In this document: in pieces, positions 3,891 through 25,896 of the stretch | How the letters are laid out: the number at the start of each line of letters is the position of its first letter | Position numbering within the stretch: position 1 is the first letter of the stretch | Translations under genes and position numbers: made by a program | Assembly (NCBI GenBank): GCA_944386175.1 | Contig: CALXAB010000017.1 | Span: 1 to 34,084 of the forward strand | Source of the DNA: an uncultured Clostridia bacterium | GTDB lineage: Bacteria > Bacillota > Clostridia > TANB77 > CAG-508 | Length of the DNA: 34,084 bases | Direction: 5' to 3' | The notes under the pieces: model-generated | The model's input: the letters and a program-made list of their open reading frames with translations, nothing else | Database searches by the model: none | Told to the model about the DNA's origin: nothing

Positions 3891-4038
3891 TTGCCAAAGT
3901 GTGCCAAAGGGGACGGGCTATTTTGACAGATTGCCAAAGGGGACGGGCTATTTTGGCACACTTTAGTTTAATAAGTTTAAAATAATTGATTATAAATTAA
4001 GTGTGCCAAAATAGCCCGTCCCCTTTGGCACTTTGGCA
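3891..4038. repeat. Compound inverted repeat of TGCCAAA-GGGGACGGG units
   Basis: It starts 2 nt after the porB stop. Unit 1 (3902-3928) and unit 2 (3932-3958) are tandem, same orientation, 30-bp period; a third copy (4004-4030) is inverted. Arms 3932-3963 and 3999-4030 are a perfect 32-bp inverted repeat around a 35-nt AT-rich loop. Each unit is itself a small hairpin: stem TGCCAAA/TTTGGCA around a loop with GGGGACGGGCTAT. The same unit recurs at 24274-24300 with 25 of 27 bases identical. The architecture is REPIN-like (two inverted REP-type units); the link to the RAYT at 15258 is inferred. Confidence 0.85.
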
Positions 4039-4869: not shown

Positions 4870-7800
4870 TTACTTTGTTTTTTTCTTGTAACTTACTAAT
4901 AACCCTACACTTATTGCTAATATTATTTGAACAATTCCTATAATAATAATTTTAGAGTTTCTGTCTAATCCAGTTTCTATTGATACTATCATTTTTGACT
5001 TTGAAGTATTATCTTCTTTATTTATGTCTTCATATCCTGCTGGATTTTCTATTTTAGTTAAAAGTACTGTATTGTTTTTTTCTCCAAAATTATTTTTTCC
5101 TTTATTCCATGTTAATGTTATTTCTAGCTCTTTGTATTCTCCTTCTTTTATTATTTCGTCTTTTAATACATCTGTTACTAGTGTTCCATTTCGTTCTTCC
5201 CAATGTATATTATTATCTTGTTGTTTATAGCTATATCCTTCTGGAATAATCTCTACTATTTCTCCTACTGTTCCTTCTACTTCTCCTTTGTTTGTTATTC
5301 TTATTTTATATGTTATTTTTATATCAGTAGTTTCAGTTTTTGTTCTATGTATGTCTACTTTGTAAATTTCATCTTTGTTTTCTATATTTTGTACTGTTTT
5401 GTTTATTCCGTCTATATTTACATTTGATATCCATTTGTCTATACCTAAATTAAATATTTGTTTTTCATAGTAATATATTACTGTTATTTTGTCTTTTTCC
5501 ATATTTCCTTTATAGTTTTCTGTTTTTTCTATAAATTTATAATATGGTATTTCTTTTTCTTCTGTTGTATATTCATCTCCTACATATCCTTCTATTGTTT
5601 CAGTATCTGTTAATTCATATCCTGTTTCTTTTTCTATATATTTTATTTCTACTTCTGCCTTTCTTTCATAATAATATTTTACTACTATTTCGTCTTTCAT
5701 TTCTCCATTGCTATTTGATGGTATTTCTACTAATTCATAGCCATCAAATTCTTTTTCTTCTGCTTGATATCTGTCTCCTTCATGACCTTCTATTATTTCA
5801 TCTTCTGCTAATTTTTCTCCTGTTTGTCTATCTATATATTCTATTTTTACTGTTGCTTTTTTGATGTAATAATATATTACTTCTATTGGTTCTTCTGTCA
5901 TCTTTCCTGTTGCATTTTCTGGTAATTTACTGTTTCCTTCTTCATCTATTTCGACTAAGTCATATTTTTCAAATTGTTTTGATGGTATATTATATTCATC
6001 ACCTACGTTTCCTTTGTGTGTTTCTTCTTCTAATATTTCGTTTGTGTTTATGTCTATGTGCTTTTCTGTTACTCCTCCTGATATTTTTTGGTAATAGTAT
6101 GTTACTACTGTTTCTGTGTTGTATGTTCCATCTTCATTTTTTGTTATTATCATTTGTCCTTTTGCATTTTCTGGCTTTTCTACTAAATTATATCCATCAA
6201 ATTCTTTTTCTTCTGTCTCATAATTATCATTTTGGTGTCCTTGCATTATTTCATCTTCTGTGATTTTTTCTCCTGTTGTTTTATCTATATATTCTACTCT
6301 TACTGTTGCTTTTCTAATATAATAATATTTTACTTCTATTGCCTCTTTTGTCATTTCTCCTTCTGCATTTTCTGGTAATTTACTATTTCCTTCGGAATCT
6401 TCTGTTACTAAGTCATATCCTTCAAATTCTTTTGATGGTATATTGTATTTATCTCCTTCATTTCCTTCATGTATTTCTTCATATATTATTTCTCCTGTTA
6501 TTTCATCTATATGTTTTTCTATTACTCCTGATGATATGTGTACATAGTAATATTTTACTATCTGTTCTTCTTTTGTCATTGTTATATTTGGATTTTCTGG
6601 CGCTTCTACTAATATATATCCTTCAAAGTTTTCTGCTTTTGTTTCGAAGATATCTCCTACAAGTCCATCTTTACTTTCTTCTTTTAGTATTTTTCCTGTT
6701 TCTCTATCTATATGTTGAACTGTTGCTTTTGTCTTTTGTGCATAGTAGTAAATTACTTCTATTTGTTCTTTTTGCATTATTCCTTTTGTGTTGTTTGTAC
6801 TTTCTACAAATTCGTAATTTTCTATATCTTTTTGTTGAGTTTTATATTCTTGTCCTTCATATCCTTTTATAATTTCTTGTTCTGATAATTCTTTGTTAGT
6901 ATCTTTTTCTAAATATTTTACTACTACTTGCGTATTTTTTCCATAATAATAGATTACTTCTATTGATTGTTCTGTCATTTTTCCACTTGTATTTTTTGTA
7001 TCTTCTATGAATGTATATCCTTCTATTTCTTTTTTCTCTGTTGTATAATCTTTCCCTACATATCCTGATATTTCATATTGTGTTTCTTCTGTTAATGGTT
7101 CATTTGTTGCTTTATCTAGATATTTCACTATTACTTTGGTATTTTTTGCATAATAGTAGATTACTTCTATTTTGTCTCTTGTCATTACTCCAGATGTGTT
7201 GTTTGTATTTTCTACACATGTGTAATTTTCTATATTTTCCATATTTGTTTTATATTCTAATCCTTCATGACCATAAATTACTTTTTCTTTTGATAATACT
7301 ATATTAGTGTCTTTTTCTAAATATTTTACTATTACTTGTGTAGTTTTTGCATAATAATATATTTTTTCTTGTGATTCATCTGTAAATTCACCTGTTGTTT
7401 CCTCTGGTTTTTCGATTAATGTATATCCTGGTATTTCTTTTTCATCTTCTGCTATATCGAATTCTTCTCCTACGATTCCCTCCTTTGTCTTGCTGTCTGT
7501 TATTTCCTCTCCTGTATTTTTATCAATATATTTTATAACTACTGTTCCTGGAATTTTTGTCATTATATTCGTAATTGTTACTTGCTTTTCATTTGTTTTT
7601 CCTTCTTTGTTTGTTAGTTCTCCTATTTCTTTTTCATAATGGTATAAGTCATTTTCTAATACTTCTTTTTCGTCTACTGTATATTGTATTTCTTGTCCGT
7701 TTTCATCATATTTGTTTAAGTTTGTAAAAGTATATTTCCAATTTTCTTCTTTTGTTACAATTGCATCATCTTCTACTATATCTCCATTTTTTACTTCTAG

Positions 7801-10800
7801 TTTTATTGTTTCTGGTCTTTTGTTATATATATTTTCTTGATCTTCCCAAATTTTATTTACTTCTATACTTATTGTTTCTGTTGGTCTTGTAAATGTGTTC
7901 GTTATTGTTGTGTCTTCTATTTTACTTGTGTAAAATTTTAAATCTCCTTGAGTTTTTTCTTGTTCTTCTACTGTATAATTTATTCTATTATTATCTTCAT
8001 CATATTTAGGCAATTCTTTGAATATATAATTCCATGTATTTTTGTCCGCATTGTTTGCTGTTGCTTCACTTAATTCATATCTTTGAATTTCTTTTCCATT
8101 TGCTTTTAATATTATTATTACACTTTCTGGCCTTCTTTGAACTTGTATTTCGTTATCTTCCCATATTTTTGTTACTGGTATTTCTACTTTATCTACATTT
8201 TGCGTGAATTTGTTTGTTATTGTTGTTCCATTAATTGTAGCTGTATAAAATTGCAAATCATTGTTGTTTACTTCCGTTTCATCAACTGTATATTTAATTT
8301 CTTCTCCATTTTCATTATATTTTTCAATTTTTTCAAATGTATATGACCATGTATTTGCATCTCCATTTGTTGAATTTGTATTATTTACTTCTTGTTCTTT
8401 TATTATTTTGTTTTCATTTTTTAATTGCAATTTTATACTTGTAGGCCTTTTGTTTGCTTTGTTGTTATTATCATCCCATATTTTAGTTACTGGTATTTGC
8501 GTTAATTCTTCTGGTTTTTCAAATGTATTTGTAATTATAACTTGCTTTTTATTTTCATTATTTTCTATATTTGTTATATCTCCTATTGTAGTTGTATAGA
8601 ATTTTAAATTTCCTGACGTTTTTTCTTGCTCTTCTACTATGTATTCTATTTCATTTCCCTTATTATTATATTTTGGTAGTTCTGTAAATGTATAATTTGT
8701 TTCTTCTGATGTTTTTAGTTCATATGATTTTATTATTTCTTCTGGATTATTGTTATCTGCATTTTTTGCTTTTACATTTAATACTATTGTTTTAGGTCTT
8801 CTTTTTGCTTGTATTTCATTATCTACCCATTTTTTATTAACCGTTAATTCTATTTGTTCAGCTGGTACATTAAATGTATTTTCTATCTCAAATCCATTTA
8901 CCATATCTCCTGTTGGTTGTGATATTGTATAGAATTTTAAATCTCCTATACTTACTTCCGCTTCTTTTATTGTATATTGAATCTCTTCTCCATTTTCATT
9001 ATATTTTGGTAAATTCTCTATGGTTGTTTCCCAAGTATTTTCTCCTGTTTCATTTGCTTGTTTGCTTATTATTTGGCTTATTTCATTTGTACCATCTGAC
9101 ACTATCAATTTTATTTCATCTGGCCTTTTTCCATTTATATTATTGTTGTCTAGCCAATTTTTTGTTATTTTTATACTTCTTGTTTCATCTTTGTTTACAA
9201 ATGTATTCCTTATTGTTGCTTGATTGTCTTTTATTTCTACATTATTTTCTTCTACTTCATAAAAATCTAAGTCCCCTTGATTTTTTTCTTTTTCTTCTAC
9301 AATATATTTAATTTCTTGTCCATTTTCATCGTATTTTTGTAAATCTTTTATTGTTATTGCCCATTGATTTGTTGTTCCTGCTACTACATTATTTTTTGTA
9401 ATCTCTTGTCTTATTACTTCTTCATTGTTTTCTTTTTTTACTACTAGTACTAAACTTTCAGGTCTTCTTTTTGCTTGTATCTCGTTATCTTTCCATATTT
9501 TATTTATTATGATATCTTGTGAATAATTTTTATCTACATTGTAACTATCTTTCCCTGATGTTATTTTCTCCAATAATATATCTACTTTTTCTCCATTTTC
9601 TGTTATCAAATTTCCATCTGTGTACGAATTTGAAGTATAATTATCCTTTTTTACTTTGTTTTTTCCTGTAATAGTAAATGTTATATAATCTCCTTTTTGA
9701 GATATTGCCTCACTATTTTTCCCAAAATCTATTGTTACTTTATTTCCTTCTATTTTATACATATTAGATGTTAGTTCTACTTTTTCTCCATTTTCATCTG
9801 TAAAATATGCTTTTGCTGTTGAGTTGTCTAATAATATGTCTTCATCTATTGTGAAATATGTTTTTCCTCCATGAAGTCCAGATAATTCTTCTTTACTTGT
9901 ATTCGTTACTTTTAGTGTTATATCTACATTTCCACCTTGTAAAAGTTCTGTAAATCCTTTTGAAGGTTTATGTGTAATTTCTGTTTTATAAATTGGTGTT
10001 TCTATATCTGAGCTTAGTCCTAATGCATTTACCAAAAATACTGTTGCATTTGTATTATTTACAATTTCCATATCTACTTTTGAACTACCTGATGGAAGAG
10101 TTGCACTTATATAAGGTTTGGCTTCTGATGAAATATCTGCTAATATTAAATCTGTGTTATAATCTTCATTTTCTCCTCTGATAACAGGATATCTAGCTAT
10201 ATCCATAACTTCACCATTTATTTCTGGTCTTGCTATAAAAAATTTACCATCTGCTCTTGATTCTCCTGTTAATGGATTTCCATTAAATGTTACTTGCCCA
10301 CTATTTTCTGTTCCTTCAACACTAATTAATAATTGTCCTTTAGGATTGTCTTTTTTTATACCAACTTCTTTTCTGTTTATTTGTACATCTATTTTATCTT
10401 GTGTTGTACCTTTAGTTTGAACTCCTCCTAATTTTAAGTTTATGGACTTTATATCATTTTCTTCATTTTCTTCTATTACAATTAATTTCCATGAAGCAAA
10501 TTTATCTTCTGATGTTCCTACTCCTTGTCCTTTATCATTTAGTCCTGGTCTTATATCTAAATATGGTATATCTTTTCCTATATAGTCTCCATATCCTTGT
10601 TCTTTTACAAATTCAGTTACATCAACATACCCACTTGTTCTAACTCCTGTCTCATCTTGAAATAGCTCTAGTTTTGGAGTTACAGTATCTCCTTTAGGAC
10701 CTATTAATGTCATTGGATATGTATTTAATAAATTTGGATATCTTGGCACTTCATATTGAGTATCTGTTCCATAGCTATTTGTTTCTTTGCTAATTAATCC

Positions 10801-11316
10801 CGTTGTTGCTGAAACTACTAGATATGCTGCTTTTATAGTTCCTCCATTATATTTTAATTCACTTTTTGAAGAGTTTCCTCCCCCTCCTATTGCTGATTGC
10901 ACAGTTTTTGACATATCAAAAGTAGTTCCACTTATATATTTATAGCCAATATCAACCGTATCTGTTAGATATCCTGTTCCATATTCGTCTAAGTATAATG
11001 GCTTACAAATATATTCTGGATAATTAGCTTGAGTAACACCTACTGCTGATATGGCTGAACTAATACGTGTGTTATCTCCATATGCTGTATTTGTCCCCAT
11101 TGCAACATTAAAATTATATCTTCCAATTCCTGAAAAAACTTGATCTAATGAAGTTGGTATCTCTACCTTATCACTTGCTGATTGGTTATTTTGTATTTTT
11201 CCAGCTTGCGTATATGTTTTATTCTTTATTGAGTATATTAATGTCATACAAAAACTTATTATTACTATACAACTTAAAATAATAGCTACCGTAAATTTGA
11301 TTTTATTTTTTTTCAT
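4870..11316 (-). CDS. Giant Cna-B/MucBP repeat surface protein
   Basis: 2148 aa with AGGAGG before the ATG. Layout: basic N-terminus and hydrophobic segment (about 8-29) as signal or anchor; a unique region (about 40-597) that may carry the adhesive head; six Cna-B-like repeats (598-1252; each with a W-x-D-N/D..(K/R)RP start and a K-Y-(D/N)..YTV(D/E)E end); ten MucBP-like repeats (1253-1952; each with (K/H)(Y/H)(I/L)(D/E) and ending YYY); a non-repeat domain (1953-2110); then SIETG (2112-2116), a hydrophobic helix (about 2119-2142) and KKKTK. The end resembles a sortase sorting signal, but no LPXTG is present. Cna-B domains serve as rigid stalks and MucBP domains bind mucus in other Firmicutes, so a host-surface adhesin is inferred. 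Confidence 0.85.
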   Translation of the reverse strand: MKKNKIKFTVAIILSCIVIISFCMTLIYSIKNKTYTQAGKIQNNQSASDKVEIPTSLDQVFSGIGRYNFNVAMGTNTAYGDNTRISSAISAVGVTQANYPEYICKPLYLDEYGTGYLTDTVDIGYKYISGTTFDMSKTVQSAIGGGGNSSKSELKYNGGTIKAAYLVVSATTGLISKETNSYGTDTQYEVPRYPNLLNTYPMTLIGPKGDTVTPKLELFQDETGVRTSGYVDVTEFVKEQGYGDYIGKDIPYLDIRPGLNDKGQGVGTSEDKFASWKLIVIEENEENDIKSINLKLGGVQTKGTTQDKIDVQINRKEVGIKKDNPKGQLLISVEGTENSGQVTFNGNPLTGESRADGKFFIARPEINGEVMDIARYPVIRGENEDYNTDLILADISSEAKPYISATLPSGSSKVDMEIVNNTNATVFLVNALGLSSDIETPIYKTEITHKPSKGFTELLQGGNVDITLKVTNTSKEELSGLHGGKTYFTIDEDILLDNSTAKAYFTDENGEKVELTSNMYKIEGNKVTIDFGKNSEAISQKGDYITFTITGKNKVKKDNYTSNSYTDGNLITENGEKVDILLEKITSGKDSYNVDKNYSQDIIINKIWKDNEIQAKRRPESLVLVVKKENNEEVIRQEITKNNVVAGTTNQWAITIKDLQKYDENGQEIKYIVEEKEKNQGDLDFYEVEENNVEIKDNQATIRNTFVNKDETRSIKITKNWLDNNNINGKRPDEIKLIVSDGTNEISQIISKQANETGENTWETTIENLPKYNENGEEIQYTIKEAEVSIGDLKFYTISQPTGDMVNGFEIENTFNVPAEQIELTVNKKWVDNEIQAKRRPKTIVLNVKAKNADNNNPEEIIKSYELKTSEETNYTFTELPKYNNKGNEIEYIVEEQEKTSGNLKFYTTTIGDITNIENNENKKQVIITNTFEKPEELTQIPVTKIWDDNNNKANKRPTSIKLQLKNENKIIKEQEVNNTNSTNGDANTWSYTFEKIEKYNENGEEIKYTVDETEVNNNDLQFYTATINGTTITNKFTQNVDKVEIPVTKIWEDNEIQVQRRPESVIIILKANGKEIQRYELSEATANNADKNTWNYIFKELPKYDEDNNRINYTVEEQEKTQGDLKFYTSKIEDTTITNTFTRPTETISIEVNKIWEDQENIYNKRPETIKLEVKNGDIVEDDAIVTKEENWKYTFTNLNKYDENGQEIQYTVDEKEVLENDLYHYEKEIGELTNKEGKTNEKQVTITNIMTKIPGTVVIKYIDKNTGEEITDSKTKEGIVGEEFDIAEDEKEIPGYTLIEKPEETTGEFTDESQEKIYYYAKTTQVIVKYLEKDTNIVLSKEKVIYGHEGLEYKTNMENIENYTCVENTNNTSGVMTRDKIEVIYYYAKNTKVIVKYLDKATNEPLTEETQYEISGYVGKDYTTEKKEIEGYTFIEDTKNTSGKMTEQSIEVIYYYGKNTQVVVKYLEKDTNKELSEQEIIKGYEGQEYKTQQKDIENYEFVESTNNTKGIMQKEQIEVIYYYAQKTKATVQHIDRETGKILKEESKDGLVGDIFETKAENFEGYILVEAPENPNITMTKEEQIVKYYYVHISSGVIEKHIDEITGEIIYEEIHEGNEGDKYNIPSKEFEGYDLVTEDSEGNSKLPENAEGEMTKEAIEVKYYYIRKATVRVEYIDKTTGEKITEDEIMQGHQNDNYETEEKEFDGYNLVEKPENAKGQMIITKNEDGTYNTETVVTYYYQKISGGVTEKHIDINTNEILEEETHKGNVGDEYNIPSKQFEKYDLVEIDEEGNSKLPENATGKMTEEPIEVIYYYIKKATVKIEYIDRQTGEKLAEDEIIEGHEGDRYQAEEKEFDGYELVEIPSNSNGEMKDEIVVKYYYERKAEVEIKYIEKETGYELTDTETIEGYVGDEYTTEEKEIPYYKFIEKTENYKGNMEKDKITVIYYYEKQIFNLGIDKWISNVNIDGINKTVQNIENKDEIYKVDIHRTKTETTDIKITYKIRITNKGEVEGTVGEIVEIIPEGYSYKQQDNNIHWEERNGTLVTDVLKDEIIKEGEYKELEITLTWNKGKNNFGEKNNTVLLTKIENPAGYEDINKEDNTSKSKMIVSIETGLDRNSKIIIIGIVQIILAISVGLLVSYKKKTK
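5461..7560 (-). repeat. Ten MucBP-like repeats (coding)
   Basis: Residues 1253-1952 of the giant surface protein divide into ten units of 66-76 aa, each starting with a strand like VIVKYLDK and ending in YYYxK/R. Units 6 and 8 (starting ISSGVIEKHID / ISGGVTEKHID, each with GNSKLPENA) and units 7 and 9 (KATVRVEYID / KATVKIEYID) alternate, which points to duplication of a two-domain block. Confidence 0.85.
7561..9525 (-). repeat. Six Cna-B-like repeats (coding)
   Basis: Residues 598-1252 of the giant surface protein divide into six units of 105-117 aa. Each has a V(T/N)K(I/K)W(E/D/V)D start, a (K/R)RP(E/D/T/K) turn, a K-Y-(D/N)-(E/N) turn, then YTV(D/E)E or a variant, and closes with (T/R)NTF or a variant. 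K and E/D residues suited to intramolecular isopeptide bonds are present but were not mapped. Confidence 0.85.
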
Positions 11317-14428: not shown

Positions 14429-14465
14429 AATAGGGATTTTAGGGACGGGGTTCTAAATCCCTATT
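14429..14465 (+). repeat. AGGGATT-type GGGACGGGG palindrome, copy A
   Basis: Stem 14429-14439 against 14455-14465 (AATAGGGATTT/AAATCCCTATT, 11 bp), 15-nt loop TAGGGACGGGGTTCT. A T run follows, so it may also terminate asnS. Bases 14428-14450 are identical to the minus strand of copy C (16312-16334). Confidence 0.85.
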
Positions 14466-14493
14466 TTTTCATTAATAAAGGGGGAAAACACTA

Positions 14494-15132
14494 TTGAATA
14501 AAAATGATAAAACAAAAAAGGCTAAAGACAAAACATTAAAAAAAGAATCTATAAAAGAAAAAATTCAAACTTTGAAAGAACACAATAAATTTTTAAAATT
14601 TATATTAAATGTCAAAAATATATCTATTATCATATTATCATTTTTACTATTTTGTGCCTTTTGTGCATATACTAATCCTGTTGATGTAACACAATATGAA
14701 AATAAAATAACGGAATTAAATGACAAATTAGAATATAATGAAAAGCAAATTACAAATTTGAAAGAAGAAAACCAGCTTTTGCAGAAAGCAAATTCTACAT
14801 TAGAAGAAGAAAAACAAACTTTAGAAAATGAAAAAAATAAATTAACTACTAAAGTAGATGAATTAGAGAATGCATCTACTGTATCTTCTAGTTCTGAAGT
14901 TCAAAACTCTTCTACTTCTACCGATTCTTCTTTAACAAACAGCTCAAAATCATCCAGTGAAACTTCTACAATAAGTACTACAAATAATCAGAGTTATACT
15001 GTATATATTACAAATACAGGAAGCAAATATCATTCCGCTTCTTGTTCTTATTTAAGAAAAAGTAAAATAGCTATCTCTTTAAGTGAAGCTAAATCAAAAG
15101 GATATACAGCGTGTAGTAAATGTAATCCATAA
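14494..15132 (+). CDS. Membrane coiled-coil protein with Cys/His C-terminal module
   Basis: 212 aa, TTG start with AAAGGGGG 9 nt upstream. Lys-rich cytoplasmic N-terminus (1-40); one membrane segment (about 43-59, ISIIILSFLLFCAFCAY); a coiled coil (about 66-127) with heptad-like Leu/Ile; a Ser/Thr linker (128-166); and a final module (about 168-212) with H180, C184, C207 and C210 in the pattern YHSASCSYL...TACSKC. Such HxxxC...CxxC ends occur at the C-terminus of many Firmicute surface or nuclease-associated proteins and probably bind a metal. The layout implies a stalk holding this module outside the membrane. Function unknown. Confidence 0.65.
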   Translation: MNKNDKTKKAKDKTLKKESIKEKIQTLKEHNKFLKFILNVKNISIIILSFLLFCAFCAYTNPVDVTQYENKITELNDKLEYNEKQITNLKEENQLLQKANSTLEEEKQTLENEKNKLTTKVDELENASTVSSSSEVQNSSTSTDSSLTNSSKSSSETSTISTTNNQSYTVYITNTGSKYHSASCSYLRKSKIAISLSEAKSKGYTACSKCNP

Positions 15133-15221
15133 TTAATTTAATACAAATTGGTTTTATAATTGAATCTAAAACATGATTAAAAAATTTTTATAGTAAAAAT
15201 GTGAATATATCAGAACAAAAT

Positions 15222-15256
15222 ATAGGGATTCTTACCCCCGTCCCCAAAATCCCTAT
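15222..15256 (-). repeat. AGGGATT-type GGGACGGGG palindrome, copy B
   Basis: Stem 15222-15230 against 15248-15256 (9 bp), 17-nt loop reading TTGGGGACGGGGGTAAG on the minus strand. It begins one base after the RAYT stop codon, on the RAYT coding strand, and has no T run behind it on that strand. The stretch 15133-15221 holds nothing else recognisable. Confidence 0.85.
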
Positions 15257-15257
15257 T

Positions 15258-16037
15258 TCATTTTTTATTTTTTTCTATCCACTTTATTCTATTTTTTCCT
15301 ATTCCTAATATACCACATATGGTTTTATTTGTAATTTTGGAATTTTGATTTAAATATTCTTTAAATTTTAGAATTAACTGATTTGATGATTTTACTTGAT
15401 TTAAATGCACTTTATATTCTTTGCAAAAACTGCTAATTAAAATTTCAATTTTTTGTTTGCTTTCATTAAGATTATTTCTTTCTTTTGAAGTATCAATAAT
15501 ATCTATATTCTCATCCATTTTTATATTATAGAAATCTTTTAAATAATTTTCTGTTCCAAATATTATTTTTGCAACCTTCTTATCTAATTTATTTCCATAA
15601 AATTCATTAAAAGATGAAAATTTGTATTCGTTTGGTTTTTTTACTAATCCCGCTTTAATTGGATTTTCATGAATGTATTTTATACATGTAAATAAATGTT
15701 TTTCATCTTTTATGGGTTGAGAATAATATCTATTTGCAAATACATATCCTACTCTTTTTTCATTTTTATTATAATAAATTGCATATGCTGTATTTATTTT
15801 TCTCATTGCTGCAATTAGCTCATTTGTTTCTTTCATATGTATCAATATATGTGCATGATTAGACATTACACAATATGCTACTAATCTTAAATTTTTTAAT
15901 TCATTAATATATTTCTTTAAAAGGTTTATATATACATTTTTATAGTCATCTTTATAAAATATAAATTCTTTTTCAATGCCTTCAGTTACAACATGAATAA
16001 AGTCTGATTTTATATTTTCCCTTGCTATTCTTGGCAA
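15258..16037 (-). CDS. REP-associated tyrosine transposase (RAYT, Y1/HUH nuclease)
   Basis: 259 aa from the TTG at 16035-16037. That start gives the family N-terminus M-P-R-x-x-R, and AGGAGGG lies 6 nt before it; the ATG two codons earlier has no spacing to that site. The Transposase IS200-like (Y1) domain covers about residues 1-130: metal-binding HUH motif in MSNHAHILIH (about 61-70) and the nucleophile region KYIHENPIKAGLV, followed by EYKFSSFNEFYG. About 130 C-terminal residues include a helix-turn-helix-like TNKTICGILGIGKNRIKWI. No IS200 terminal structures or accessory genes are seen. It is bracketed by GGGACGGG palindromes (15222-15256 and 16299-16333), which favours a domesticated RAYT acting on REP-like elements over an active IS. 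Confidence 0.85.
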   Translation of the reverse strand: MPRIARENIKSDFIHVVTEGIEKEFIFYKDDYKNVYINLLKKYINELKNLRLVAYCVMSNHAHILIHMKETNELIAAMRKINTAYAIYYNKNEKRVGYVFANRYYSQPIKDEKHLFTCIKYIHENPIKAGLVKKPNEYKFSSFNEFYGNKLDKKVAKIIFGTENYLKDFYNIKMDENIDIIDTSKERNNLNESKQKIEILISSFCKEYKVHLNQVKSSNQLILKFKEYLNQNSKITNKTICGILGIGKNRIKWIEKNKK

Positions 16038-16093
16038 TAGCATCCCTCCTATCTATTTTTATAAAATGAATAAATTGATATAATCTAATTATT

Positions 16094-16141
16094 GAATTTA
16101 ATTTTGAATTTAATTTTGAATTTTATTTTGAATTTTATTTA
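16094..16141. repeat. Four 12-bp tandem repeats
   Basis: GAATTTAATTTT twice, then two variants (GAATTTTATTTT, GAATTTTATTTA) in the AT-rich gap 16044-16298 upstream of the RAYT gene. A 12-base TTTTTACATGAA word also appears twice (about 16197-16240). No gene or promoter is convincing in this gap. Confidence 0.75.
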
Positions 16142-16298
16142 ATATAAAATTTAAACAACAATATTAGAAATAAATTTTTAAAAAATTAATTTTTATTTTT
16201 ACATGAAAATAAATTTGTTTATAATTTCATTTTTACATGAACAAAATTTTACTTGTGATTTTACTTTGGGTAATGATTGGGCACCAAATCCTTAATAT

Positions 16299-16333
16299 AT
16301 GGGGATTTAGAGCCCCGTCCCTAAAATCCCTAT
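16299..16333 (-). repeat. AGGGATT-type GGGACGGGG palindrome, copy C
   Basis: Stem 16299-16308 against 16324-16333 (10 bp with one G-T pair), 15-nt loop TAGGGACGGGGCTCT on the minus strand, one base different from copy A. It overlaps the end of the ferredoxin gene: the TAG stop (16330-16332) is part of the stem. Confidence 0.85.
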
Positions 16334-24000: not shown

Positions 24001-24251
24001 TGTTTAAAAAATTAATTGAAAATTTTAAGGAGTTTGAAAAAATTACATATAAAATAATGAATTATGGATTAAAATTTTGCTTTGCTATATGTCTAATTTC
24101 TGTTTTTATTCTTCTTTCATATAATTTAAAATTTCATTCTCCTTATATGTATTATATAGGTATCTCTTTATTTAGATTAAGCTTAATATTTGGTACTGAA
24201 TTTATAATTTGTGCTTTTGTGGCAGATAATCTAAAAAAAGGCAGAGCTTAA
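24001..24251 (+). CDS. Small two-helix membrane protein, function unknown
   Basis: 83 aa from the ATG at 24001 with GGAGG 5 nt upstream; a longer frame from 23922 has no such site. Amphipathic N-terminus (MFKKLIENFKEFEKITYKIM) followed by two membrane helices, about residues 24-40 (FCFAICLISVFILLSY) and about 48-75 (MYYIGISLFRLSLIFGTEF), with a short basic end KKGRA. Not a family I can name. Its stop runs straight into the GGGGACGG repeat compound. Confidence 0.7.
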
Positions 24252-24254
24252 AAA

Positions 24255-24460
24255 AGGGGACGGATCTTGAGATTGCCATTGGGGACGGGCTATTTTGGCA
24301 ACCTTAGGGGACGTTCCTTCAATCCCGAAAATTAGGGAACAAAGGGACGGACCTGTAATAATTTAAAACAGGTCCGTCCCTTTGTTCCCTAATTTTCGGG
24401 ATTGAAGGAACGTCCCCTAAGGTTGATGGCATAATTTTCGGGATTGAAGGAACGTCCCCT
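24255..24460. repeat. Compound GGGGACG repeat cluster with 58-bp perfect inverted repeat
   Basis: It fills the gap between two convergent genes. In order: a partial unit (GGGGACGGATC, 24257-24267); a TGCCA-type unit (24274-24300); a perfect 58-bp inverted repeat (24299-24356 against 24368-24425, 11-nt loop AATAATTTAAA) built from GGGGACGTTCC...CCCGAAAAT and GGGAACAAAGGGACGGACC units; and one more minus-strand GGGACGTTCC unit (24428-24458) that ends 4 nt before the gatB stop. The RNA of either strand would form a very stable hairpin and would stop convergent transcription. The units recur at 3891-4065. Confidence 0.9.
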
Positions 24461-24462
24461 TT

Positions 24463-25896
24463 TTATATTTCTTCTAAAAATAATTTATTTAACATTTTAG
24501 GATTTGCTTTTCCTTTTGTCTCTTTCATTGCTTGTCCTACTAAAAATCCTAATGCTTTCTCTTTTCCTGCTTTATAGTCCTCTATTGATTTTGGATTTGC
24601 TTCTAATACTTTTTTTACTACTTCTCTTATTGCTCCTTCATCTGATATTTGTATCCATCCTTTTTCTTTTATAATTTCTTCTGGATCTCTAGGATTTTCG
24701 AATAATTCTTCTAGTACTTTTTTGCCTATACTTGAACTTATTGTTCCTTTATCTATTAAAATTACTAGCTTTCCTAGTTGATTACTGTCAAATGGTATTT
24801 CTATTGGTTCTGTTTCTGTTTCGTTTAATATTCTTGATATGTCAGATATAATCCAATTGTTTACTGCTTTTGGATTGTTACATACTTTTATTGCTCCTTC
24901 AAATAAGTCTGATAAATATTTTGAAGCAGTTATTATATTTGCGTCTTTTTCTGATAAATTATATTCTTTTAGATATCTTTCTTTTCTACTTTCTGGTAAT
25001 TCTGGTAACTCTTTTTTAATATTTTGTATATATTCTTCTGAAAGATTTATTGCTACCAAATCTGGCTCTGGAAAATATCTATAGTCATCTGCATCTTCTT
25101 TATCTCTCATAGCAAATGTTTTTCCTGATACATCATCCCATCTCAAGGTTTCTTGTTCTACAGTACCACCATCTTCTAATATATCAATTTGTCTTTCTAT
25201 TTCATAATCAATTTCTCTTGTAATGCTTTTAAAAGAGTTCATATTTTTTGTTTCTGTACGTGTTCCTAATTTTGTATCTCCTTTTTTTCTTACTGATACA
25301 TTTACATCTGCACGATATGATCCTTCTTGCATTTTACAATCTGATACTTCTATGTATTCTAATATTGATTTTAGCTTTTTAAGGTATAATTCCGCTTCTT
25401 CACTGCTTCTTATATCTGGTTCAGAAACAATTTCAATTAATGGCACTCCTGCTCTGTTTAAATCTACTAAACTCCCTCCTGAAAATTCATCATGATTTAG
25501 TTTTCCTGCGTCTTCTTCTATATGGATTCTTGTAATTCCTATTTTCTTCTTTCCTTCTTTTGTTTCTATTTCTATATACCCATTTTTACACAATGGCTTA
25601 TCATATTGTGAGATTTGATATGCTTTTGGCAAATCTGGATAAAAATAGTTTTTTCTATCATTTTTGCTGTTTCTTGATATTTCACAATTTGTTGCTAACC
25701 CAGCTTTTACTGCATATTCTACTACTTTCTCGTTTAATACTGGTAATGTTCCTGGCATTGCCATACATATTGGACATACTTGAGTATTTGGTGCTGCTCC
25801 AAATTTTGTTGGACATGAACAAAATATTTTTGTTTTTGTTGAAAGTTCTGAATGAACTTCTAGTCCTATTACTACTTCGTAATCTTCTCTTGACAT
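24463..25896 (-). CDS. gatB: Aspartyl/glutamyl-tRNA amidotransferase subunit B
   Basis: 477 aa, full length. N-terminal catalytic cradle (YEVVIGLEVHSELSTKTKIF) that activates the misacylated tRNA with ATP, zinc cysteines (FCSCP and TQVCPICMAMPG), and the C-terminal helical/YqeY-type tail domain that binds the tRNA (KALGFLVGQAMKETKGKANP). Works with GatA and GatC to turn Glu-tRNA(Gln) or Asp-tRNA(Asn) into the amide form. Start ATG with AGGAGGAAAATAA upstream; 132 nt behind gatA. Confidence 0.97.
   Translation of the reverse strand: MSREDYEVVIGLEVHSELSTKTKIFCSCPTKFGAAPNTQVCPICMAMPGTLPVLNEKVVEYAVKAGLATNCEISRNSKNDRKNYFYPDLPKAYQISQYDKPLCKNGYIEIETKEGKKKIGITRIHIEEDAGKLNHDEFSGGSLVDLNRAGVPLIEIVSEPDIRSSEEAELYLKKLKSILEYIEVSDCKMQEGSYRADVNVSVRKKGDTKLGTRTETKNMNSFKSITREIDYEIERQIDILEDGGTVEQETLRWDDVSGKTFAMRDKEDADDYRYFPEPDLVAINLSEEYIQNIKKELPELPESRKERYLKEYNLSEKDANIITASKYLSDLFEGAIKVCNNPKAVNNWIISDISRILNETETEPIEIPFDSNQLGKLVILIDKGTISSSIGKKVLEELFENPRDPEEIIKEKGWIQISDEGAIREVVKKVLEANPKSIEDYKAGKEKALGFLVGQAMKETKGKANPKMLNKLFLEEI

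Follow-up and report, generated by a model that had tools for sequence, protein, structure and literature searches.

The window, by which we mean the whole 34,084-nucleotide stretch analyzed, is contig 17 of the source genome, an uncultured Clostridia bacterium (70 contigs totaling 1.77 Mb; completeness, 76%). It carries a RAYT-like Y1/HUH gene (RAYT1) and three GGGACGGG palindromes (copies A, B, and C), all of which had been pointed out in a sequence-only reading and were present on re-reading of the sequence (Table 1). Copies A to C read AGGGACGG or GGGGACGG in the loop, by direct reading, and the loops of A and C are, as had been said, one base (T/C) apart. RAYT1 had been described as bracketed by two palindromes on its coding strand, B and C. 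Both do lie on the minus strand like the gene, but the inverted bracket consists of C and A, ~1.9 kb apart and with A on the opposite strand; copy B is an extra copy inside this bracket, in the orientation of C. The bracket also encloses a 212-aa ORF, and the chromosomal home of RAYT1 is ricT-ferredoxin, facing asnS.

Table 1. Features of the RAYT1 locus and other hairpin elements in the window
Feature	Position	Strand	Remarks
Family II hairpins, facing pair	3903..4030	cores 3910 +, 3940 +, 4015 -	cognate to dnaB-linked RAYT2
Copy A, family I hairpin	14431..14463	+	immediately 3' of asnS; forms the inverted pair with C; T run after
212-aa ORF (TTG start)	14494..15132	+	within A-C bracket
Copy B, family I hairpin	15223..15256	-	directly 3' of RAYT1, oriented like RAYT1
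RAYT1, TIRYT-like HUH nuclease	15258..16037	-	likely TTG start at 16037; alternative ATG at 16043
Copy C, family I hairpin	16300..16333	-	upstream of RAYT1; overlaps ferredoxin stop codon
Nested cluster: family III units with a single family II hairpin	24247..24468		

The M-P-R-x-x-R start ascribed to RAYT1 depends on the start codon. From the first ATG (16043) the protein begins M-L-L-P-R-I-A-R, and the motif stands at the N terminus only if translation starts two codons further on, at the TTG (16037); by reading of the sequence, this TTG is better spaced from the AGGAGG. The near relative L095, a MAG labelled uncultured Clostridium sp., has a RAYT 96% identical to RAYT1 and also carries the 212-aa ORF inside its RAYT bracket; in the genus genome G001, the stretch from asnS to the RAYT showed no such ORF. 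The ORF product is coiled-coil-like, has a Cys-containing C-terminal part, and matches phrog_14556, a group of unknown function. Elsewhere in the window, positions 4870-11316 (minus strand) encode a 2,148-aa surface-type protein containing repeats of the MucBP and Cna_B types, and the long opposite-strand ORFs across it are probably spurious. Matches to GGGACGGGG with at most one mismatch numbered seven in the window, with 0.16 expected from shuffles, and four of them (3910, 3940, 4014, and 24282) belong to another family than copies A to C, one that the sequence-only reading had left unlisted.

RAYT1 is a RAYT relative, as had been claimed, by both sequence and predicted fold. It scored 40.5 bits against PF01797 Y1_Tnp (cut-off 23) and 75.2 bits against NF047646 REP_Tyr_transpos, slightly below the cut-off of 80, and residues H63, H65, Y123, and N127 are conserved in the alignment of all 112 complete RAYT relatives. 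A profile of 40 RAYTs had a single match among PDB sequences, 4er8, the E. coli TnpA-REP (E 1e-5). The structure model of RAYT1 (mean pLDDT 76, built from a five-sequence alignment) had the same entry as its best fold match (E 1.3e-6, TM 0.73 by target length), followed by ISDra2 and then IS200/IS608-type transposases, and has a predicted helical C-terminal part (helices 190-258). Weak, sub-cut-off HTH matches were found in some of the 40 RAYT relatives, C-terminal wherever their positions were seen; profile search of the window RAYT1 protein gave none.

Searching the whole genome with PF01797 revealed four genes: an IS200-like gene on contig 69 (137.2 bits) and three with 39.5-44.6 bits, namely, RAYT1, RAYT2 on C53 (38% identical to RAYT1), and RAYT3 on C56 (66% identical, its gene cut by the contig end). 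The GGGACGGG elements are likewise dispersed rather than confined to the window, with 107 genome-wide occurrences against one of the reversed pattern, and they fall into families with a common loop motif and different stems. Family I, with the stem AGGGATTTT...AAAATCCCT, has 10 genome copies (at most three mismatches); family II, with TGCCAAA...TTTTGGCA, has 100 and family III, GGGGACGTTCCTTNAATCCC, has 130 (both at most two mismatches), and the reversed-pattern controls gave 0 for each. RAYT1 has family I beside it, RAYT2, located behind dnaB, has family II on both sides, and RAYT3 has family III upstream, such that each of the three RAYTs of the source genome pairs with one of the three families. 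The GGGAC core is thus not diagnostic of RAYT1, the other two RAYTs being framed by GGGAC-loop families of their own. The sequence-only reading, which had put this one RAYT behind the GGGACG elements across the genome, is thus right in kind and wrong in scope: only 10 copies have the RAYT1 stem, and the 100 and 130 others match the other two RAYTs. Many copies face each other in pairs, frequently at a distance of 70-80 bases, and some copies lie nested within others. Many contigs of the source genome begin or end within ~60 bases of a GGGACGGG copy (e.g., C16, C21, C25, C27, C42, C58, C59, and C61), and since contigs end inside or next to such copies, the repeats seem to break the assembly.

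Hairpin anatomy was examined at 113 RAYT loci, consisting of 112 of the 178 genus matches plus L095. A hairpin with the core in its loop, in the expected orientation and within 700 bases, was found at 92 loci; 75 loci had one upstream, 73 had one downstream and inverted, and 56 had both, compared to single-base shuffle expectations per 113 loci of 2.1 upstream and 0.75 downstream (~3). Core hairpins in the opposite orientation numbered 5 and 9, and 21 of the 113 loci had no core hairpin in the 700-base flanks. A motif-free test gave an inverted flank match score of at least 19 at 81 of 112 loci, 74 of which contain GGGAC, against a background in which the 99th percentile of random pairs was 18 and the largest value 28. 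The remaining 31 loci had no inverted repeat by score, the RAYT1 locus among them, its copy A being outside the 700-base scan; L046, cut by a contig end, was left out of this test and of the tree below. The best hairpins (n = 92) have stems of 6-12 bp and loops of 10-22 nt (11-17 nt in 86), with the core starting 0-3 nt into the loop. Their cores were GGGACGG (45), GGGACGT (19), GGGACAG (10), GGGACAC (6), GGGACGC (5), GGTTCCGGG (5), and other (2), and the GGGAC loop motif is common to nearly all RAYT lineages examined. One RAYT clade behind dnaB (L152, L160, L176, L206, and L210) has hairpins whose loops contain GGTTCCGGGTTT instead of GGGGACGG.

Stems and proteins diverged together. Across genomes, stem distance correlated with protein distance (r 0.38; largest of 2,000 permutations, 0.12), and at 65 of 91 loci the stem was the same as that of the nearest protein in another genome, where 9.6 were expected. 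RAYTs group by their upstream gene, and clades keep fixed chromosomal homes. For example, all 16 ricT-locus members, rows that were chosen by hand and that include four (L069, L070, L073, and L076) with another neighborhood gene between, fell in one supported clade of 20 in the tree of 112 RAYTs, where this label needs five changes. Nineteen RAYTs in 19 genomes lie directly behind dnaB and are 83-98% identical over the part compared; by reading of these loci, the hairpin stands within about 12 bases of the dnaB stop and the RAYT start 87-254 bases further on. A GATTA-like motif outside many upstream hairpins, considered as a target site, is actually the end of the dnaB coding sequence. Other home clusters comprised 11, 8, 6, 6, and 4 RAYTs, and the members named were ileS-like, ricT (that of RAYT1), ABC-F ATPase, ComEB-like, and RecD2-like, naming being based on a family search with one member per cluster, several on fragments below the curated cut-off. 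G001 has a RicT 95% identical to that of the source genome, and its asnS-ferredoxin place is occupied by a RAYT only 38% identical to RAYT1, where hairpins of the TAGGGAAA type stand at the same stop codons. At this place G009 (L119, 600-1150) has two small genes between asnS and ferredoxin that appear toxin-antitoxin-like by eye only, and G008 (L117, 1-1240) has, beside ferredoxin in the place of the RAYT, a gene that looks serine recombinase-like, also by eye only.

The abundance of the elements follows the presence of RAYTs. A RAYT match was found in 81 of 97 genus genomes, the source genome included (178 matches summed over the table, some of which may be fragments). Relatives without a detected RAYT have few copies, in line with the link drawn by the sequence-only reading: the median number of GGGGACGG per genome was 30 in the 81 genomes with a RAYT vs 1.5 in the 16 without (Mann-Whitney p 2.6e-5, p-values being only a guide since the genomes are related), and the reversed GGGGACGG control had a median of 4 and a maximum of 9. 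More than nine copies occurred in 58 of 81 genomes with a RAYT vs 2 of 16 without, the two exceptions being G059 (74 copies, 82% complete) and G019 (18 copies, 79% complete). Nine or fewer were present in 23 of the 81 RAYT-bearing genomes, some of which, e.g., G012, carry RAYTs whose hairpins show the GGTTCCGGG core. GCCA-stem RAYTs (a list compiled by hand from the loci fetched) were enriched in genomes with at least 10 family II-pattern copies, being present in 13 of these 22 genomes vs 8 of the 75 others. Family II has 87 copies in G008, which like the source genome (G000) has RAYT2, and 7 in G001, none of whose three RAYT matches is in the dnaB-linked clade. A counter-case is G008 (81% complete), with 86 family III copies and no match at the level expected for RAYT3; its two RAYT matches have a best E of 2e-41. 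The family I pattern at three mismatches matched in 26 of 97 genus genomes and was not used as a test, because it also catches related families elsewhere.

Turnover was evident at orthologous sites. Flanks of 17 of 22 chosen source clusters were searched against G097, G008, and G001, and 13 sites could be resolved in one or more of these relatives (sites 0, 9, 14, and 15 were left out of the count). The element was missing in at least one relative at three of the 13 (sites 2, 6, and 16) and belonged to a different family in at least one relative at six (sites 5, 7, 8, 10, 12, and 13), and family I was retained at sites 3 and 4 in G000, G001, and G008. Nine resolved sites were filled in G001; five of these (sites 5, 7, 8, 10, and 12) carry the kinds that frame its own RAYTs (C7, C46, and C104), and the other four (sites 2, 3, 4, and 13) carry family-I-like hairpins, with no RAYT1 orthologue detected in that genome.

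We consider it likely that the source genome holds three resident TIRYT-like RAYTs, each with its own hairpin class that it binds, cuts, and slowly copies or moves. As we picture it, each RAYT would bind its own hairpin as single-stranded DNA, reading the stem plus the loop motif, and would cut beside the hairpin through Tyr123; facing hairpin pairs, as REPIN-like units, would slowly be copied or moved into intergenic sites behind genes, and the RAYT gene itself would stay at its inherited place. Binding, cutting, and movement of the hairpins by the RAYTs are putative activities that we infer, as would be any host use. A farther-reaching version, which we put forward only as a tentative and rather doubtful idea, is that the RAYTs of this clade together recognize a separate repeat class, a long-loop hairpin with the stem as lineage address and the loop GGGAC as common signal, and that resident RAYTs compete for the same intergenic sites, the elements being rewritten in place whenever the set of RAYTs shifts. 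Replication genes precede several of the RAYT homes (dnaB, holB-ricT, and a recD2-like gene); if this version is true, RAYT expression at such homes would be tied to the fork, the place at which single-stranded hairpins arise.

The elements could instead have been spread by ancestral RAYTs, the present ones being domesticated for a different host task and moving nothing, such that differences between genomes would reflect recombination and decay. Such a history would accommodate RAYTs whose position is inherited across an entire clade, as well as the family-I-like and family III elements that persist where the RAYT was not detected. We nevertheless regard it as unlikely, given that none of the 112 complete genes has lost its catalytic residues and that six G001 sites differ in family from G000, five of them with the kinds framing the RAYTs of G001. 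Alternatively, were the hairpins host RNA elements, i.e., terminators or stabilizers of mRNA 3' ends, the RAYTs would be incidental neighbors or at most past vehicles. The elements are indeed close behind stop codons, a crude ORF call placed none of 22 clusters between divergent genes (14 tandem, 1 convergent, 7 overlapping an ORF call), and copy A, which precedes a T run, has a good RNA fold (z -3.6). However, RNA folding of B and C is no better than that of shuffles (z -0.9 and -0.7), and a terminator needs neither a loop GGGAC nor nested facing pairs, nor would it need a stem that follows the RAYT tree or an abundance linked to RAYTs, all of which makes this explanation improbable. An ordinary GTAG-type REP/RAYT system or an IS200/IS605 insertion sequence would share the Y1 fold, the hairpins flanking the gene, and facing pairs as in REPINs, but with GT[AG]G at the 5' hairpin foot in just 2 of 90 cases and RAYT Y1_Tnp scores far below that of the IS200-like gene on contig 69 (39.5-44.6 vs 137.2 bits), we can see hardly any chance of it.

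The arrangement of three RAYTs, each with its own hairpin class, looks like a variant TIRYT-like RAYT system, a little-studied kind, and the closest known system is probably the TIRYT/TIRtron, probably of subclass 2.1 (Bertels group 1). As far as the available text of Di Nocera et al. (2013, PMC3733652) describes them, TIRYTs are RAYT-like genes within inverted repeats, some with GGGGWSAS and some with repeat families; some TIRs with GGGGWSAS form moderately abundant families, and the two TIRYT genes of S. maltophilia go with two families of TIRs. Here, too, RAYT-like genes are framed by inverted repeats (C and A, and 81 of 112 relatives by score). In contrast, GGGGWSAS, a feature of some TIRs, fits 7 of 92 hairpins exactly and is absent in A to C, since the usual core here is GGGACG; further differences, with TIRs compared by description only, are the core at the start of a long loop and the stems that vary by RAYT lineage. 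In the portions available of Quentin et al. (2018, PMC6006769), subclass 2.1 (20/26 TIRYTs) has a C-terminal HTH-like extension, is equated with RAYT group 1 of Bertels 2017, and is reported without REP-like sequences near its genes, from a scan restricted to hairpins with a GT[AG]G foot and a loop of 2-5 nt. The RAYTs described here resemble TnpA-REP subclass 2.1 in being longer Y1 proteins with a predicted C-terminal extension and, unlike that subclass as published in those portions, have hairpins alongside, which would escape such a scan because they are without a GT[AG]G foot and have loops longer than 2-5 nt.

More distant systems share parts of this organization. The E. coli TnpA-REP REPtron (4er8; PMC8266576, as excerpted) has the closest solved fold and likewise one RAYT per repeat type, and paired repeats and protein-repeat co-evolution are further likenesses to the E. 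coli GTAG-REP REPtron of the same excerpt. Unlike GTAG-REPs, the hairpins here have no GTAG foot (2/90) and have a loop motif, and the proteins have an extra, predicted C-terminal helical part. CGTC-tagged REPs, as the available text of PMC3733652 presents them, are similar in that CGTC is the complement of GACG and that facing pairs predominate; they have the tag at the hairpin end, 4-5 nt loops, and no linked transposase, whereas here the motif is inside a 10-22 nt loop (92 hairpins) and RAYTs are linked, and a CGTC-REP identity was accordingly rejected. E. coli REPINs are commoner in genomes with a RAYT, according to the part of Park et al. (2021, PMC8049555) at hand, similar to the GGGGACGG abundance that tracks RAYT presence in this genus. 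No earlier report of such a system was found among the literature matches listed on REP, RAYT, and TIRYT topics, which are mostly without subscription papers.

If the RAYTs of this genus are of subclass 2.1 (group 1), the missing repeats are present in this genus in a natural series, which makes recognition between HUH nuclease and hairpin directly testable. The RAYT behind dnaB in particular is one orthologous gene, in 19 genomes, beside hairpins with changed stems and loops, and comparing close relatives that have a particular RAYT with others that lack it offers a chance to ask what effect the nuclease has on the repeats.

RAYTs also extend beyond the genus. A class-wide draw of 391 genomes had a RAYT match in 143 genomes and in 92 of 222 genera, and among the best 30 loci class-wide a hairpin was found at 24 of 29 testable ones (six of these loci being from the own genus; L296 was left out owing to its short flank). 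Distant RAYT relatives were additionally detected on five contigs of a viral collection. Three of these viral-collection contigs (L312, L313, and L314) encode RAYT relatives that are ~30% identical, and in L313 and L314 these are flanked on each side by GGGAC or GGGTC motifs.
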